Source: Halogranum gelatinilyticum (GTDB lineage Archaea; Halobacteriota; Halobacteria; Halobacteriales; Haloferacaceae). Taken from it: a stretch of 64,000 nt of DNA. Of this stretch, positions 40,697 to 48,460 are shown in pieces. The position numbers and the translations under genes are program-made. Position 1 is the stretch's first letter; each line of letters starts with the position of its first letter. The notes below the pieces were generated by a model. That model worked only from the letters and a program-made list of their open reading frames with translations. It was not told the origin of the DNA and ran no database searches. The stretch lies in NCBI RefSeq assembly GCF_900103715.1, contig NZ_FNHL01000001.1:1-64000 (forward strand), given 5' to 3'.

Positions 40697-41071
40697 CTAC
40701 TCTTCGCCGCCGAACTCCTCGATACGGGCGTGGACCGTCTCGACCCACTCGTCGAGGGCGTCGTGAAGCAGTTCCTTCGCCTCGTCGAGCGGGGTCGCGG
40801 TGTACTGGTAGACGTAGCCGCCGGGGTCGAGCAGGCGACGGCGGCGTTCGACGAGCCCCTTTTCGAGCAGCGTCGTCAACGAGCGGTTGACGTTGCTGCG
40901 GTCGCGTTCGAGTTTCTCGGCCAACTCGGCGACAGTGCTGCCGGGGTTGTCGCGGAGGACGAGATACGTCCGACTCTCGTGGTCCTGAATGCCGAAGACG
41001 CAGGCGAGTACGTGTTGGAAACTGGGGTCCTCGGTCTGCAGGAGGTCCTCCATATCCGGCCGGTCGGTCAT
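40697..41071 (-). CDS. Winged-helix transcription regulator (TrmB/MarR-like)
   Basis: This 124-residue protein centres on a winged helix: SRTYLVLRDNPGSTVAELAEKLERDRSNVNRSLTTLLEKGLV is the classic helix-turn-helix register (about residues 30-75). A wing follows (RRRRLLDPGGYVYQYTATP). A C-terminal helix (about 90-120) probably dimerises. There is no sugar-binding TrmB domain, so it is the short form. The start at 41071 (MTDRPDMEDLL) is chosen over a longer frame with basic non-homologous sequence. The regulator's target is unknown, and its neighbours thrC and the 80-residue gene give no firm hint. Confidence 0.85.
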   Translation of the reverse strand: MTDRPDMEDLLQTEDPSFQHVLACVFGIQDHESRTYLVLRDNPGSTVAELAEKLERDRSNVNRSLTTLLEKGLVERRRRLLDPGGYVYQYTATPLDEAKELLHDALDEWVETVHARIEEFGGEE

Positions 41072-41194
41072 GGCTGGCTCTTCGCAGTGGCCGGGATTAA
41101 AACTCCCCGTTCCCCGCACGTCGTGCCGCCTCGCCGCCGGACGGCACCGCCGTCGGTTCGTCACCACTCCGTCGACGCGGCTCGCCTCCGTGTG

Positions 41195-41464: not shown

Positions 41465-43009
41465 TTACTCCTGCCCTTCTGCGACCCCGTCGGCTCCCCT
41501 TCGACTGTCTTCGCCGTCATTCCCGTCGCCGCGCTCGATGGCGACGACGAAGGCGACGAGCGAGACGAGCGCGAGTGCCAGTGCGAGGGCGGCCCGGCCG
41601 CCCGACGGCACCGACAGCGGGCCGAGACCGTACATCGCGACGAGCGCGACGACGACACCGACGCCGACGGCGAGCAGGCTGCCGGTCGCGTGAACCACCT
41701 CACCGCGGCGCGTCTCGGCCTCGACGCCGAGTTGGTGGCCGAGACCGACGGCGTTCTCGCCGAGATCCCAGACGAGCAACGCGGCGGCGACGCCGACGAA
41801 CGTCAGGAACGCCGGAACGCCGCTGACGGTCCCGGCGAGCGCGGCCACGAACAGCAGGCCGCTGCCGATGGCGAAGCCGCCCGCGGTGGCCGGGACGTAC
41901 GACGTCTCCGACAGCCACAGCGCGGTCCCGACGGTCGTGAGGACGGCCACGAGCGCGGCGACGACGGTACCGAGCGTGGTCGCGCCGAGACCGAAGGCCG
42001 CGCTCAGCGTCGCCGCCGACGACTCGGGGTGGAAGCCCGAGACGACGAGTGCCACGAGCGGCGGAATCGCGGTGAGGAGACCGACGACGGCGCCGACGAC
42101 CAGCCCGCCGCCCGCGTTCGCGAGCGTCTCCGGCGGCTCGTCGCCCGCCCAGACGACGACCGCGTGACGGACGTAGTCGGCCAGAACCGTCCCGGCGAGC
42201 AGGGTGACGAGCAGTGCCAGCGGAATATGCAACACACCCGAACGCAGGAGGAACCGAATCGCCTCGCCGAAGACCGACAGCAGGCCGAGGAGTCGTTCGA
42301 CCAGCGGCGGTGCCCAGTCGGTGCCGACGAGGACGACCTGGCCGCCGAGTGCGAGCCAGACCCACCGCGGGACCTCCCAGAGTTCGGTCGCGAGCTGGTC
42401 GAGCACTGCCCGCTGCTCGGGCAGCCACGCGTCGGGCAGCCACTCGTCGTACCGGGGCAGTGCCCGCGCGAGCAGGAGGACGACGAGCAACACGCCGAGT
42501 TGCACCGACAGCAGAAGGACGAAGCTGTTCTGTGCGAGCAGCGTCTCGCCGGCGAACAGGACGCCCTGTGCGACCGCGGCGACGAGACCGGTCGCGACGG
42601 CGGCGGCGAGCGCGACGAAGCCCGCGAGCACCACGCCCGAGTCGAGAATCGCCCGGAACAGCTCGCGGCCCGTGTCCTCGTCGAGTCCGCCCGTCGCGTC
42701 GAGTGCCGTCGCCATCACGGCGAGTCCGGCGAGTGCGACGAGACCGGAGGCGGTGTCGGCGACGACGACGGCACCGACGAGCAACGCCGAGCCGACGACG
42801 ACGCCGACGCTGCCGATGGCGCGCCGTTGGTTCGACTCGCCGTCGAGCAGGTTCGCGCTCCGGCCGACGAGTACCGCACCCGCGACGCCGACGAGACCGC
42901 GGAGGAGCGAGCCGGTCCCGGCGACGAGTGCGACGGTCGCAACCGCCGCGACGCCGAGTGCCAGCGAGGCACCGAACCGGGTCGCGGCCGTCTCGAACTC
43001 GCGGGTCAC
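41465..43009 (-). CDS. Polytopic membrane protein of the DUF58/DUF4129 operon
   Basis: This 514-residue protein has about 12-13 hydrophobic segments. Several are long and Ala/Val/Leu-rich (for example LALGVAAVATVALVAGTG near residue 15). It has short hydrophilic loops and an acidic C-terminal tail. No transport motif is visible. I recall haloarchaeal proteins of this kind at the end of DUF58 operons. The GTG at 43009 overlaps the DUF58 stop as GTGA, which decides the start. It is last in a four-gene operon whose members all overlap by 4 bases. Confidence 0.8.
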   Translation of the reverse strand: MTREFETAATRFGASLALGVAAVATVALVAGTGSLLRGLVGVAGAVLVGRSANLLDGESNQRRAIGSVGVVVGSALLVGAVVVADTASGLVALAGLAVMATALDATGGLDEDTGRELFRAILDSGVVLAGFVALAAAVATGLVAAVAQGVLFAGETLLAQNSFVLLLSVQLGVLLVVLLLARALPRYDEWLPDAWLPEQRAVLDQLATELWEVPRWVWLALGGQVVLVGTDWAPPLVERLLGLLSVFGEAIRFLLRSGVLHIPLALLVTLLAGTVLADYVRHAVVVWAGDEPPETLANAGGGLVVGAVVGLLTAIPPLVALVVSGFHPESSAATLSAAFGLGATTLGTVVAALVAVLTTVGTALWLSETSYVPATAGGFAIGSGLLFVAALAGTVSGVPAFLTFVGVAAALLVWDLGENAVGLGHQLGVEAETRRGEVVHATGSLLAVGVGVVVALVAMYGLGPLSVPSGGRAALALALALVSLVAFVVAIERGDGNDGEDSRRGADGVAEGQE

Positions 43010-44292
43010 GGCGACCACCTCGCCGTGGCGCGGTCGACGGCAGTGTAGAGCGGTTCGTCCGGCGACCACTCGACGACGCGGATCTCGCGTCGCCGGAGGT
43101 CCGAGAACCGCCGGGCGCGCTCCAGTCGGGCGACGGTCCCGCCGAGCGTCTCACCCGAGAGGTTCGGCGTGACGACGGTGACGCTGTGACCGTGTGCCTG
43201 CAGCCGTCTGAGTGCCGTCGTCGGCTCGTCGTCGACGAGCGGCGAGAGGAAGACGACCTGCGCCGCGCTCGGCAGCCGCTTGAGCAGGCTGTCGAAGCCC
43301 CATTGGTCGTCGGCACCGAACATATCGGGCTCGTCGGCTGGCGGCTCGATGGTCTCGAACAGCTGGCCGACCCGGAGTGCCTGGTCGCGGCCGGTGCCGG
43401 GAGCGAGATACGCCTCCTCGGGACCGTAGAGTGCCGCACCGACCCGGTTGCTCGCGTCGAGCAGGGCCTCGGTGAGCCGTTCGCCCGCGTACGCCGAGAG
43501 CCAGACGGCGTCGGGTTCGCCCGCCTCGCGGACGACGTGGGCCGGCGGTCGGGTGTCGACGAGGAGGACGACCGTCGCGGCGCGTTCCTGGCGGAACTCG
43601 ACCGTCGTCAGCTCGCCCGTCCGGGCGTAGCGCTTCCAGTCGATCCGGCTCATCGGGTCCGAGGGATGGTGTTTCCGGGTCGCGTAGAACTCCAGGCCCT
43701 GGCCGCCGACGTCGGTCGAGACGCGGCCGCTGCTGGCGACGGTCTGGGCCGCCAGCGAGAGCCGTTCGACGCCCGCCTCGCAGGTGAGCGTCGTCGGCAC
43801 CTCGACCGCGAGTCGCTTCTCCGCGCCGCCGCTGACGTTGCGCGCGACGAGGACGGTCTCGTCGAACTGGTGGCTGCCGCGGGAGGCGCGGACGGTGTAG
43901 GTGAGCGTCTCGCGCTCGCCCGCGCGGAGGCTCGTACAGACCCGCGGACTGCCGTCCTCCACGGCGACCCTTTCGGGAACGCCGTCGACGACCCGGAGGT
44001 CCGCGACCGGTCCCTCGCCCTCGTTGGTGACGGTGAGCGTCACTTCGACGGTCGAGCCGGGCGCGGGTGACGTCTCGCTCAGCGTCCGGTCGACCGCGAG
44101 GTCGAGTTCCGGCGGCCGGGTGGCGTAGCGGTAGCCCGCGTACGTGAGACCGACGGCGGCCGAGAGGAACATCGCCGGATTGCCGACGACCAGCCCCGAG
44201 ACACCGGCGAGGAGTCCGACAGTGAGTCCGACGTCCCAGCGACCCGGGCCGCCGGTGAAGCGGACGGAGTCACGCTCGTTCTCGGTGCTCAC
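43006..44292 (-). CDS. DUF58 domain protein
   Basis: This 428-residue protein has two N-terminal membrane helices (about 20-60). A beta-sandwich domain follows (about 60-160, GSTVEVTLTVTNEGEGPVADLRV). The DUF58 signature DPMSRIDWKRYARTGEL sits near residue 218. A von Willebrand-A-like fold comes next, starting VVLLVDTRPP near 248. The metal-site pattern DxSxS expected there is DTRPP, so the MIDAS appears degenerate. DUF58 proteins usually work with MoxR AAA ATPases and transglutaminase or DUF4129 partners in cell-surface assembly. Here the partners are DUF4129 and two membrane proteins. It overlaps both neighbours by 4 bases. Confidence 0.88.
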   Translation of the reverse strand: MSTENERDSVRFTGGPGRWDVGLTVGLLAGVSGLVVGNPAMFLSAAVGLTYAGYRYATRPPELDLAVDRTLSETSPAPGSTVEVTLTVTNEGEGPVADLRVVDGVPERVAVEDGSPRVCTSLRAGERETLTYTVRASRGSHQFDETVLVARNVSGGAEKRLAVEVPTTLTCEAGVERLSLAAQTVASSGRVSTDVGGQGLEFYATRKHHPSDPMSRIDWKRYARTGELTTVEFRQERAATVVLLVDTRPPAHVVREAGEPDAVWLSAYAGERLTEALLDASNRVGAALYGPEEAYLAPGTGRDQALRVGQLFETIEPPADEPDMFGADDQWGFDSLLKRLPSAAQVVFLSPLVDDEPTTALRRLQAHGHSVTVVTPNLSGETLGGTVARLERARRFSDLRRREIRVVEWSPDEPLYTAVDRATARWSP

Positions 44293-45278
44293 GGCCGGTC
44301 ACCCCCCACGCCAGTGGCGACCTCGTGGTCGGTGATGCGGTCGGTGTCCCCGTCGCTCTCCTCGGCAGCACCGTCGGTGCTGTCGGTGGCGACGGTACCG
44401 TCGCGGTCGTCGGACTCGTCGTCCGTGTCGTCGGCATCGTCACCAGGTGCCCACCGACGGTCGTCGGCAGCGGCGGTGGCCGTCGACCGTTCGCGTACGG
44501 GCTGGGGGGCGCGCTCCTCGCGCGCTCGACGGTCGGTCGCGGCGTCGGCCGTCGTGTGGGTCACGTCCTCACCGACGTCGCGATACTCGGGGTCGATGGC
44601 GGTGATGGCCTCGACGGTGTCGCGGACGTGTCGCCGGTAGGATTCGCCGCTGGCCCAGTCGCGGATACGAACCGACAGGGGGAGTCGCGTCTCGCTCTGG
44701 TCGCCGAGGAACCGTGCTGCCCGCGGGGAGTCCGTCCACGTGCCCTCGGCAAGGCGGTTCCGGGCGAGCTGCGGCGCGCAGTTCTCGGCCTCGCTGATGG
44801 CGACGACGGCCGCTTCGTAGAGCGAGTCGTAGGTCTCACGGCGGAACTTGTTCGTCTCCCACTGTGCGAGCTCCTCGCCGCTCGTCGCGCGGTCGATGGC
44901 CTCGCCGACCGCCCGGCCCTCGGTGAAGTAGGCGAACTCGGGGTGGCGGTCGGGGATTGTGACGGCCGGGTCGTCGGCGGGCTCCGAACGCTCGGAGAGC
45001 CACCAGACGCCGGCGATACCCGTGATGACACCGACGACGAAGATAGCGCGACGGTTGGCGAGGAGCAGGTCGCCCGCGAGCGGGACAGCCGGTGGCAGCC
45101 ACGCCGCCGGGAGCGCGGCGACGAGGACCGCGAGGAGAAACGAGACCGAGCCGAGGGCGAGTGCCGCCTCGCGGGAGCCGAGGGCGTCGCTCGCGCGGTC
45201 GACGAGCCGCGTGAAGACGTTAGCGAGCGTGCCGGTGAGGCGGCCAGCACCGCGGCCGAGGAGTCTACCGAGAGTCAC
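44289..45278 (-). CDS. Two-TM protein of the DUF58 operon
   Basis: This 329-residue protein has two hydrophobic segments (about residues 38-60 and 75-95). A helical cytoplasmic domain of about 120 residues follows (VGEAIDRATSGEELAQWETNKF and VVAISEAENCAPQLARNRLAEGTW). The C-terminal tail is very acidic and Asp/Thr-rich (about 245-329). I know it only as a family linked to DUF58/DUF4129 operons in haloarchaea. Its gene shares 4 bases with each neighbour, so the stoichiometry is probably coupled by translation. Confidence 0.78.
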   Translation of the reverse strand: MTLGRLLGRGAGRLTGTLANVFTRLVDRASDALGSREAALALGSVSFLLAVLVAALPAAWLPPAVPLAGDLLLANRRAIFVVGVITGIAGVWWLSERSEPADDPAVTIPDRHPEFAYFTEGRAVGEAIDRATSGEELAQWETNKFRRETYDSLYEAAVVAISEAENCAPQLARNRLAEGTWTDSPRAARFLGDQSETRLPLSVRIRDWASGESYRRHVRDTVEAITAIDPEYRDVGEDVTHTTADAATDRRAREERAPQPVRERSTATAAADDRRWAPGDDADDTDDESDDRDGTVATDSTDGAAEESDGDTDRITDHEVATGVGGDRP

Positions 45279-46321
45279 TCGCCGTCACCTCCGTCGAGGA
45301 TACGGCGGAGCGCGGCGCGGGCGGCTCGCAGGCGGTCTGCCGTCGACGGCCGACCGCCGTACCGGACCTCCTCGAAAGTCGTCGTCAGCTGTTCGACCGC
45401 CGTAGAGGGGAAGCCGGCGTCGATGGCGGCCCGAGCGTAGTCGCGGGGGGTCGCACTCCGGCGGTTGGGGACCGGGACGACCTCGACCATCGCGGCCCAG
45501 ACCTCCTGGACCGTGCTCGGGGGCGCGTCGTCCCCGGGTTCTGGACTCGGGGTGTCGCGTCCGGCGGTCCCCTCGTCGGTGTCGCCGTCACCGCGAGGGC
45601 CGCGGCCGAAGGAGCCGCCGACCCGCGAGAGGCTGCCAGCCATCGAGAAGAGACCGCCGCCGAGCGCGCGGGGCAGCGAGACGAAGGCGGCCGCGAAGCC
45701 AGCGGTGAACAGTCGGACGGAGCCGAGTGCCGCGCGACCTGCACCGGCGGCGACGACGCCGAGGCTGCTCGCGACTTCGGTCGTGAGACTGCCGAGGCTG
45801 TCGAGCAGGCCGGGAACGGACGCCGAGAGACCGACGACGAACGTCATCGTCCGGCGGGGGACCGCGCCGACGACGCCACGGAGTCGGGCCTGAAGGGCTG
45901 GTAGTTCGACACCGGCGACAGTGAGTTCGTTGCCGAGCGGGACGAGCAAGAAGCCGACGCCGCCGACGACGAGCACGGTCCCCGCGAGGAGGACCGCGAC
46001 GAGGAAGTCACCGAGACCGTCGGTGCGAACCTGCGAGCCGGCCGCTGGCGTCGACTCGTCGGTCGTCGGTTCGGGCGTCGGCGTCGCGGTCGCCTCGTCG
46101 GACGTCGGCTCCGGTGTCGCTGTGGGGGTACTGGTAAACTGTGCGGGGTCCGACGGCGTGGACGCGCCGTCGAGCGGGGCGTCTGTGAGGCCGCCCCCAC
46201 CGTCCGCGCTGGTGGGATAGGTCCCGAAGCCCGTCGCGGGAAACAGCGACGCGGCGAAGGCGACGACCAGCACACAGAGGAGGGCGAGAGCGGCACGAGC
46301 GGGGTCGTAAGCCACGGTCAT
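45275..46321 (-). CDS. DUF4129 domain membrane protein
   Basis: This 348-residue protein starts with a signal-like helix (residues 6-30). A long Thr/Pro/Ser-rich, probably glycosylated exposed region (about 45-105) follows. Next is a membrane helix near 110-135, more hydrophobic stretches to about 230 and a cytoplasmic tail. The tail ends in a DUF4129 module (TPRDYARAAIDAGFPSTAVEQLTTTFEEVRYGG). DUF4129 sits at the C-terminus of many transglutaminase proteins; the transglutaminase core is absent here. First gene of the four-gene operon, with a TATA-like TTTTAAC at 46337-46345. The ATG at 46321 fits leaderless initiation. Confidence 0.83.
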   Translation of the reverse strand: MTVAYDPARAALALLCVLVVAFAASLFPATGFGTYPTSADGGGGLTDAPLDGASTPSDPAQFTSTPTATPEPTSDEATATPTPEPTTDESTPAAGSQVRTDGLGDFLVAVLLAGTVLVVGGVGFLLVPLGNELTVAGVELPALQARLRGVVGAVPRRTMTFVVGLSASVPGLLDSLGSLTTEVASSLGVVAAGAGRAALGSVRLFTAGFAAAFVSLPRALGGGLFSMAGSLSRVGGSFGRGPRGDGDTDEGTAGRDTPSPEPGDDAPPSTVQEVWAAMVEVVPVPNRRSATPRDYARAAIDAGFPSTAVEQLTTTFEEVRYGGRPSTADRLRAARAALRRILDGGDGE

Positions 46322-46396
46322 GCTGCGTCGCAATCGGTTAAAATCCTTGTCCCTCTGAGAAAACATTTAAGCGAGCGTTTCGACGTACCGACAGAG
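46322..46396. promoter_or_regulatory. Divergent promoter pair: DUF4129 operon and M48 protease
   Basis: In 75 bases two TATA-like elements face away from each other. Minus-strand GGATTTTAACC (46336-46346) lies about 20-27 bases before the ATG at 46321. Plus-strand ATTTAAG (46365-46371) lies about 28 bases before the ATG at 46397. Both transcripts should be leaderless. The shared gap suggests joint control. Confidence 0.5.
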
Positions 46397-47443
46397 ATGT
46401 CCTCGGACACCGCCCTGACCCTCCGGATGGCGGGGACGCTCGCGCTCGTCCTCGCCGTGAACCTCCTCTGTGTCCTCGCGTTCGCGTTCCTCCTCCGCCC
46501 GTGGCTGGTACCGCTGACGACGGGGCTGACCGCCTCGCTCCCACCGCTGGCGGCGCGGGTCGCCGAGTGGACGCTCCTCGTCGCCCCCCTGCTCGGACTG
46601 GCACTCTGGCTCCAACTGCGCTACGCCCGCCGGGAACTGCTCGCCGAGGTGGACGCGACCGAAGCGACTCGAGAAACGCATCCCGAACTCGTGACGCGAC
46701 TGACCCGCCTCGCCAGCCAGATGGACGTCCGGCCGCCGACCGCGGCCGTCGTCGACTCACCGGTCCCGAACAGCTTCACCGTCGGCGGGCCGCGTGACGC
46801 CACGGTCGTCGTCTCGACCGGCCTACTCGATGCACTCTCTGGCGACGAACTCGACGCCGTGCTCGCGCACGAACTCGCGCACGTCGGGAACAACGACGCC
46901 GCGATTCTGACGCTCGCCTCCTTTCTCCCCGCGCTCTCGAACGGCGACTACGCGGTCTTCGACCGCCTCGATGCTCGGCTGGGCGGCGCGTCGACGCTCC
47001 TCTTCGGCGTCGGTCTCGTCGTCGCCTACGGCCTGAGCCTGCCGCATCTGCCGGGCACGCCGTTCGGCATCACCTCGCTCGTCAGCTTCGCGCTGACGGC
47101 GACGCTGACGGTCCTGCTCGGCGGGGTCGCACTCGGCCTGCTCTCCTCGCCCGTGGTCTTCCTCTCGCGGCGGCTCTCGCGACGGCGCGAACTCGTCGCG
47201 GACCACGCTGGCGCGCAGGCGACGGGCAACCCCGCCGCGATGGTCAGTGCCCTGCGACGGCTGGACGGCGGCGACGAGCGACCCACGGGTGACCTCCGGG
47301 CGACCGAGACCGTTCGGGGACTGTGTTTCCTCCCGCACGGCTTCGACACGGAGCGCGACGACGAGTTCCGCGTCTCGACGCGCTCGCATCCGTCGCTGGC
47401 GGAGCGAATCGAGAATCTGCGGTCGTTGACGGCGTCGGTGTGA
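46397..47443 (+). CDS. M48 family membrane metalloprotease (HtpX-like)
   Basis: This 348-residue zinc protease has two N-terminal membrane helices (about 10-30 and 45-75). Its zinc motif HELAH is near residue 158, inside LDAVLAHELAHVGNND. Two more hydrophobic segments lie around 195-250. The third zinc ligand Glu is in RRRELVADHAGAQATGNP near 270. HtpX-type proteases degrade misfolded membrane proteins from the cytoplasmic side. The gene diverges from the DUF4129-DUF58 operon, which suggests quality control or processing of its products. That link is inference. A hairpin follows 42 bases after the stop. Confidence 0.92.
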   Translation: MSSDTALTLRMAGTLALVLAVNLLCVLAFAFLLRPWLVPLTTGLTASLPPLAARVAEWTLLVAPLLGLALWLQLRYARRELLAEVDATEATRETHPELVTRLTRLASQMDVRPPTAAVVDSPVPNSFTVGGPRDATVVVSTGLLDALSGDELDAVLAHELAHVGNNDAAILTLASFLPALSNGDYAVFDRLDARLGGASTLLFGVGLVVAYGLSLPHLPGTPFGITSLVSFALTATLTVLLGGVALGLLSSPVVFLSRRLSRRRELVADHAGAQATGNPAAMVSALRRLDGGDERPTGDLRATETVRGLCFLPHGFDTERDDEFRVSTRSHPSLAERIENLRSLTASV

Positions 47444-47773: not shown

Positions 47774-48460
47774 CTAGTTCGTCGTCGAGTTCGGCGTCCC
47801 CCCCGACTCGGGGGTTTCGACACCTTCGACGGCTTCGACGTTCTCCGTCTCTTTCGGCGTGTCGACGTGCCAGCGGTCGATCTCGTCCTCGTACTCGCCG
47901 AGACGACGGCTGACCTCCTCTTTCATCGTGTCGTCGTTGACGTTGACCTCGAAGATGAACGTCGGCTCGCCCTCGCCGCGGGTGGACTTCTGGATGTTGG
48001 CACTGACGAGTTCGTTGTCGAAGTAGTAGGGCGCGAGCTGCGTCATGACCTTCCGGTAGACCGTCCCCTCGACGGCGCGGATGGCCTTGCGGCCCGCCGA
48101 GTCGGCGGCGCGGGCGACGTGGTCGATGGAGTCCTTCCACGAGTCGAGCGCGCCCTCGTTGTCACCCTCGCCGACCTTCTCGTAGGACTCCGAAATCTTC
48201 TCGCCCGCGGTCTGGAGGTCCTCGTCGGGGCCCTTGCCCGCTTTTTCACCCTCGCCCTCGCCGACGACGGCCTGTTCTGCGGTCTTCTCGTTGACGTCCT
48301 CGCTGAGACGTTCGTGTGCCTTCGGTCGCCACTCGTCCCAGTCGGTGAAGGGCGACCCGTCGGCACCTGCGTCACGGAGCGCGCGAGTGATCCGCTCGCC
48401 GTGTTCGACGACGTCGCCCCACGACCCACGCTGCTTGAAGCCGGAGATACTCTCTTCCAT
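47774..48460 (-). CDS. Acidic soluble protein, haloarchaeal, function unknown
   Basis: This 228-residue protein has a helical N-terminal half (about 1-130, including WGDVVEHGERITRALRDAG and DSWKDSIDHVARAADSAGRKAIRAVEG). An alpha-beta domain follows (about 130-195, VYRKVMTQLAPYYFDNELVSANIQ and FIFEVNVNDDTMKEEVSRRL), then a disordered acidic tail ending in Gly/Thr/Asn. No Cys, signal or membrane helix is present. I recall a family unique to haloarchaea but cannot name a role. A TATA-like CTTTATAGG at about 48491-48499 supports the ATG at 48460. Confidence 0.78.
   Translation of the reverse strand: MEESISGFKQRGSWGDVVEHGERITRALRDAGADGSPFTDWDEWRPKAHERLSEDVNEKTAEQAVVGEGEGEKAGKGPDEDLQTAGEKISESYEKVGEGDNEGALDSWKDSIDHVARAADSAGRKAIRAVEGTVYRKVMTQLAPYYFDNELVSANIQKSTRGEGEPTFIFEVNVNDDTMKEEVSRRLGEYEDEIDRWHVDTPKETENVEAVEGVETPESGGTPNSTTN

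Follow-up and report, generated by a model that had tools for sequence, protein, structure and literature searches.

A divergent M48 protease linked to a DUF4129-DUF58 membrane cassette in haloarchaea, and a MoxR ATPase that probably acts in trans

The first 64,000 nucleotides of contig NZ_FNHL01000001.1 of Halogranum gelatinilyticum (the window, which opens contig C1 of this 3.77 Mb, 99.7% complete haloarchaeal genome) contain a cassette of four genes for DUF4129, DUF7269, DUF58 and DUF7519 membrane proteins and, divergent from it, a gene for an HtpX-like metalloprotease of family M48. Membrane modules of the MoxR-DUF58 kind occur widely among both bacteria and archaea. Here the question is whether the protease belongs to the cassette, and whether the cassette works without the MoxR ATPase, as an earlier interpretation of this DNA, made from the letters alone (the sequence-only reading), had proposed. 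The results answer yes to the first and do not support the second. We consider it somewhat likelier than the contrary, judging by sequence comparison, that the unit represents a distinct and ancient MoxR-vWA lineage, in which a four-gene complex has its own M48 protease for trimming or clearing and depends on a MoxR supplied in trans.

Linkage of the M48 protease to the cassette

A search of 391 haloarchaeal genomes from 84 genera found orthologues of the window protease (clade 1) in 71 genomes from 22 genera, always as one copy. A gap in score set them apart from their paralogues: in a set of 79 genomes, the orthologues had E <= 3e-65 and the next paralogues 7e-43 and weaker. The protease gene was directly beside the cassette and divergent from it in 67 of the 71 genomes (65 by coordinates alone, G002 and G173 from the fetched loci). 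As for the other four, the locus is split by contig ends in G161, only part of the cassette remains in G099, and G123 and G339 lay outside the comparison. In all 48 clade-1 loci examined DUF4129 was divergent from the protease, and in 47 of them the cassette was entire. The reverse search was made with the DUF58 profile of the clade: every one of its 60 best matches came from a genome with the protease, which was next to the cassette and divergent from it in 59 cases, the remaining match being interrupted by a contig end. No DUF58, DUF4129 or DUF7269 cassette was present within 10 kb of any of about 38 paralogous M48 loci, and clade 1 was monophyletic in the M48 tree (support 98).

Note that this linkage is not general synteny, since the genes flanking the unit in the window (ThrC, TrmB-like and DUF5828) recur only in Halogranum rubrum. 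This restriction of the flanks, together with a copy of the five-gene unit that sits on a plasmid (L197), indicates that the five genes move and persist together. Thus, the five genes are co-inherited as one unit over 22 genera, and the clade-1 orthologue hardly occurs away from the cassette. The only clade-1 protease found without a cassette, that of Haladaptatus litoreus (L206, 9785-10738), has lost its N-terminal membrane part and is likely a remnant. Chance and synteny as causes of the adjacency are excluded by the reciprocal linkage, the changing surroundings and the unlinked paralogous loci. The partnership with the protease proposed by the sequence-only reading was therefore borne out for this cassette lineage, and the circumstance named as fatal to it, an M48 gene not conserved beside the cassette, is clearly false. 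The protease is apparently a real and undescribed partner of the cassette.

A second cassette lineage in the DUF58 tree (six surveyed rows, Shimodaira-Hasegawa approximate likelihood ratio test, SH-aLRT, 100; loci L071, L081, L083, L088, L102 and L108) has a different M48 gene at the head of its DUF4129-DUF7269-DUF58-DUF7519 operon, and a MoxR gene is also there. This clade-2 M48 subfamily is present in nine genomes, with a DUF7269 cassette adjoining in all nine. The two cassette-linked subfamilies were separate in the M48 tree, each of them monophyletic (98 and 97), and one ancestral acquisition was supported neither by the tree, whose deep order is uncertain, nor by the search. Phylogenetically, then, M48 proteases were recruited twice by the same kind of complex, and two separate recruitments argue for a functional link. 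We also considered a mutual exclusion of the two types; no genome carried both, but this was not significant (P 0.16).

MoxR beside the cassette and elsewhere in the genome

MoxR was not found in the window region, and the nearest one on contig C1 is about 650 kb away. The genome of H. gelatinilyticum has five MoxR and six DUF58 genes. Each MoxR has a DUF58 gene within a few kb, and the window DUF58 is the only one of the six without a nearby MoxR. A complete DUF7269 cassette is present at three of the six DUF58 loci; of these three, the two outside the window (C1:694k and C4:224k) each adjoin a convergent MoxR gene. For comparison, 79 genomes were drawn evenly from the class and the gene order of 100 cassette regions was read with profiles made from the window genes; DUF7269 scored over its cut-off in 64 of the 79. 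This provided the survey of cassettes with and without MoxR that the sequence-only reading had suggested: of the 101 cassette DUF58 genes on the tree, 66 lie within 7.5 kb of a MoxR gene and the other 35 do not, so its loss beside the window cassette is not unusual. In the DUF58 tree the window groups with seven other loci (SH-aLRT 99), and in all eight an M48 gene is divergent from DUF4129. Seven of the eight have no adjacent MoxR. In the remaining one, L061, a MoxR gene closes the operon, and its product groups with MoxRs that belong to ordinary cassettes in that family.

The MoxRs beside DUF7269 cassettes form one clade (type A), distinct from the other MoxRs of the genome. A type-A profile matched all 64 genomes with a DUF7269 cassette and none of the 15 without (Fisher p about 2e-16, a value that overstates independence because the genomes are related). 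Thus the type-A MoxR tracks the cassette by genome, though about a third of the cassettes have none adjacent, and for this reason MoxR probably acts on the cassettes in trans. In G006 the only cassette is about 140 kb away from the MoxR, and in G047 the single type-A MoxR adjoins none of three cassettes. One ATPase serving several complexes would be the simplest reading of these patterns. The tandem duplicate of the whole DUF4129-DUF58-DUF7519 cassette in G050 (L068, 3316-10397), which has a single MoxR, also suggests one MoxR for several complexes.

Type-A MoxR genes were also present in all 11 genomes of the 79-genome set that have a window-type unit, and H. gelatinilyticum itself carries two. 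Thus, the absence of MoxR that had been read from the window holds locally and not genome-wide. An assembly free of MoxR is not supported by the 64 of 64 against 0 of 15 genomes, and the same counts favour the alternative that the sequence-only reading had named as its own refutation, a MoxR partner encoded elsewhere, often unlinked. Gene neighbourhood alone understates the partnership with the ATPase, and annotators should find it useful that the MoxR class and the cassette coincide exactly, genome by genome. Separately, a MoxR-DUF58 pair with another MoxR type lies in a conserved mutS-mutL-MoxR-DUF58 neighbourhood in Haloferacaceae (L011, and L167/L176). In genus g5 such a pair lies some 5 kb from the cassette; it is part of this mutS-mutL neighbourhood, also seen in the L011 locus of H. 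gelatinilyticum, and is probably incidental.

Possible roles of the protease and of MoxR

While the linkage was observed directly, the mechanism behind it is inferred. In the explanation that we favour, a MoxR from another locus would assemble or remodel the DUF58 complex in trans. MoxR must act on the cytosolic side. The DUF58 and DUF4129 domains probably lie on that side too, the soluble part of DUF58 being placed there by the hairpin topology of its model, and the active site of the protease would face them, as the active sites of the HtpX family lie on the cytosolic face (PMC9263693). There, the protease might trim a subunit, or it might clear away clients of the complex or subunits that were wrongly assembled, and the back-to-back promoters would keep protease and complex in step. 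The suggestion of the sequence-only reading that the protease may process or police the complex is thus plausible. Note that the 2015 model of Makarova, Galperin and Koonin puts the Ig-vWA protein outside (PMC5898192).

Three points weigh against this explanation. Genes can stay neighbours through shared regulation without physical contact of their products. G099 (L176, 14187-16569) has kept DUF4129 and the protease intact and has lost DUF7269, DUF58 and DUF7519, a natural deletion from which it appears that the protease could act with DUF4129 alone. Finally, all 11 checked genomes with a window-type cassette hold other cassettes too, and because of this the need of the window cassette for MoxR cannot be proved by co-occurrence.

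The first of these points, taken to its limit, would mean that shared stress regulation or common transfer alone joins the two sets of genes. HtpX proteins are general stress proteases. Three of them were detected in the Haloferax proteome (PMC9263693), and both gene sets here are membrane-related. However, one single M48 subfamily is linked almost totally and reciprocally to the cassette over 22 genera with changing surroundings, the paralogous M48 genes are unlinked, and a second recruitment occurred independently, which makes a neighbourhood without function very improbable. The deletion in G099 bears on another possibility, that the cassette governs the protease: the DUF58, DUF7269, DUF4129 and DUF7519 proteins would be an adaptor or sensor that brings substrates to M48 or keeps it inactive, and the output would be the proteolysis of other proteins. 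Consistent with this, the protease gene is served by a separate promoter and encodes a complete catalytic site, DUF4129 and M48 are what G099 retains, and the cassette-free remnant of Haladaptatus litoreus is the one that lacks the N-terminal membrane part. Yet most DUF4129-DUF7269-DUF58-DUF7519 cassettes have no adjacent protease, so the complex has a job that does not need one, and we regard this arrangement as possible, if doubtful.

In its strongest form, the idea of the sequence-only reading would mean that the dedicated protease took over the role of the AAA+ ATPase and controls the DUF58 complex as an energy-free remodeller, independently of MoxR. G002 is the sole member of the clade whose cassette directly adjoins a MoxR, and in all 11 window-type genomes the cassettes outnumber the type-A MoxR genes by at least one (Mann-Whitney p 2e-4). 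Against this, each of these 11 genomes has a type-A MoxR, 27 of the 101 cassettes have neither M48 nor MoxR adjacent, the second M48-linked clade retains both, and the MoxR beside the G002 cassette groups with those of other cassettes, as if one ATPase served several. We find such a replacement unlikely.

That M48 proteases were tied twice to MoxR-DUF58 modules, with almost perfect co-inheritance, suggests that the working of the complex involves controlled proteolysis at the cytosolic face. The substrate of the protease would then reveal a client of the complex.

The locus, its proteins and the known systems

Profiles and coordinates confirmed the four overlapping membrane genes, the divergent M48 gene and the local lack of MoxR. 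The cassette is read from the minus strand in the order DUF4129-DUF7269-DUF58-DUF7519, each neighbouring pair overlapping by 4 bases.

Table 1. Features of the five-gene unit, in positions of the window.
Feature	Position	Strand	Evidence
DUF7519 polytopic membrane protein, about 12 predicted helices, final cassette gene	41465..43009	-	PF24363 (7e-17, over cut-off), hydropathy, 4-base overlap with DUF58
DUF58 (vWA-like) protein: two N-terminal helices, Ig-like beta-sandwich (DUF11), vWA-like C-terminal domain	43006..44292	-	PF01882 (3e-14), PF01345, AlphaFold, Foldseek
DUF7269 protein: two membrane helices and a helical domain	44289..45278	-	PF23933 (1e-30), hydropathy, model
DUF4129 protein: helix, Ser/Thr-rich linker, helix, C-terminal DUF4129 domain	45275..46315	-	PF13559 (1e-15)
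Divergent promoter region	46316..46396	.	Sequence
M48 HtpX-like membrane metalloprotease, intact HExxH...E site	46397..47443	+	PF01435 (3e-25), invariant residues, 3cqb

The cassette-side TATA-like element, TTTTAACC (minus strand, about 46336-46344), is kept in Halogranum rubrum (G370, same genus, the closest relative found) and in other genera; the M48-side element, CATTTAAG (plus strand, about 46364-46371), is kept in Halogranum rubrum. DUF4129 probably starts at the GTG at 46315, the alternatives being the ATG at 46321 and the start of the open reading frame at 46366. The GTG is favoured because it is conserved with the TATA-like box in 26 of 26 orthologues and, at about 24-30 bases downstream of the box, fits a leaderless archaeal transcript. 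With this start the gap between DUF4129 and the protease gene is 81 bases, and the 75 bases given previously would apply if the ATG were used. Outside the unit, a TrmB/Sta1-like regulator gene (40697-41167) lies downstream of DUF7519, in the same position only in Halogranum rubrum, and a DUF5828 gene (47774-48460; PF19146, 3e-117) is convergent with M48 and outside Halogranum is not part of the unit.

The window DUF58 protein scored 53.1 bits against its Pfam cut-off of 23.4. Its AlphaFold model (mean predicted local distance difference test score, pLDDT, 76) shows a hairpin of two helices, a beta-sandwich modelled with confidence (residues 62-171) and a vWA-like domain in which strands and helices alternate; BatB (3ibs) was among the Foldseek matches, with a TM-score of 0.46 by target length. 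The best solved structural matches of the Ig-like domain (residues 62-171) were the translocon-associated protein (TRAP) subunits of the Sec61 translocon, a resemblance set aside as evidence because the beta-sandwich is a common fold. The DUF7269 model (pLDDT 65) was too weak to give a function. The sequence-only reading had taken the DTRPP of this DUF58, in place of DxSxS, as a sign that it may work without metal. The motif is indeed there, and its D246 and R248 do not vary within the clade of the window; it does not discriminate, however, since D-x-R was found in 97 of the 101 surveyed cassette DUF58 proteins regardless of their MoxR or M48 status, so that it is a mark of the subfamily and not of this cassette. 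DxSxS occurred in none of the 101, and the one seen was at another locus of H. gelatinilyticum (L010). The canonical metal motif may well have been lost from cassette DUF58 proteins.

In the protease, HELAH and the downstream glutamate (RELVAD) are intact, and H158, E159, H162 and E265 are invariant among 20 orthologues. It scored 89.5 bits against PF01435 (cut-off 20.3), and its best score against the NCBIfam HtpX equivalogs, 147 bits, did not reach their cut-off of 341. Its best solved relative is the HtpX catalytic domain, 3cqb. Thus it resembles HtpX and peptidase family M48 in its membrane helices and HExxH...E site; unlike HtpX, it is a separate clade bound to one operon and not a stand-alone stress gene.

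The literature searched (few subscription papers, no preprints) contained no paper that couples DUF4129, DUF58 and MoxR, none that joins DUF58 to MoxR in haloarchaea, and none with a fixed coupling of a MoxR-vWA module and an HtpX protease. MoxR-vWA membrane modules and HtpX proteases are already known; what is apparently new is their fixed coupling. The cassettes at C1:694k and C4:224k have the same four genes in the same order as the window, and differ from it in having a convergent MoxR adjacent and no M48. Other haloarchaeal cassettes often have a much longer DUF4129 protein, up to about 1,100 amino acids; 28 of 59 exceed 600 amino acids, and these go with MoxR-adjacent cassettes. One of about 1060 amino acids is encoded in a MoxR-linked paralogous cassette of H. 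gelatinilyticum itself (L008, 12480-15662, contig C4).

In the archaeal secretion complex predicted by Makarova, Galperin and Koonin in 2015 (PMC5898192), arCOG01314/DUF4350 is combined with MoxR and an Ig-vWA protein, and the main text of that paper mentions no protease. As it is described there, that complex shares with the window cassette a DUF58 protein with an N-terminal Ig-like domain, a MoxR-type ATPase and accessory membrane proteins. The window cassette has no DUF4350, and H. gelatinilyticum has the DUF4350 type separately (L009). As occurs in the MoxR-vWA/DUF58 modules, namely the Bat operon of Bacteroidota and the MRP-type MoxR operons, the window has a DUF58 vWA-like membrane protein whose operon encodes other membrane proteins too. 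It departs from them in the lack of an adjacent MoxR, in D-x-R for DxSxS, in its haloarchaeal partners DUF7269 and DUF7519, and in its dedicated M48 protease.

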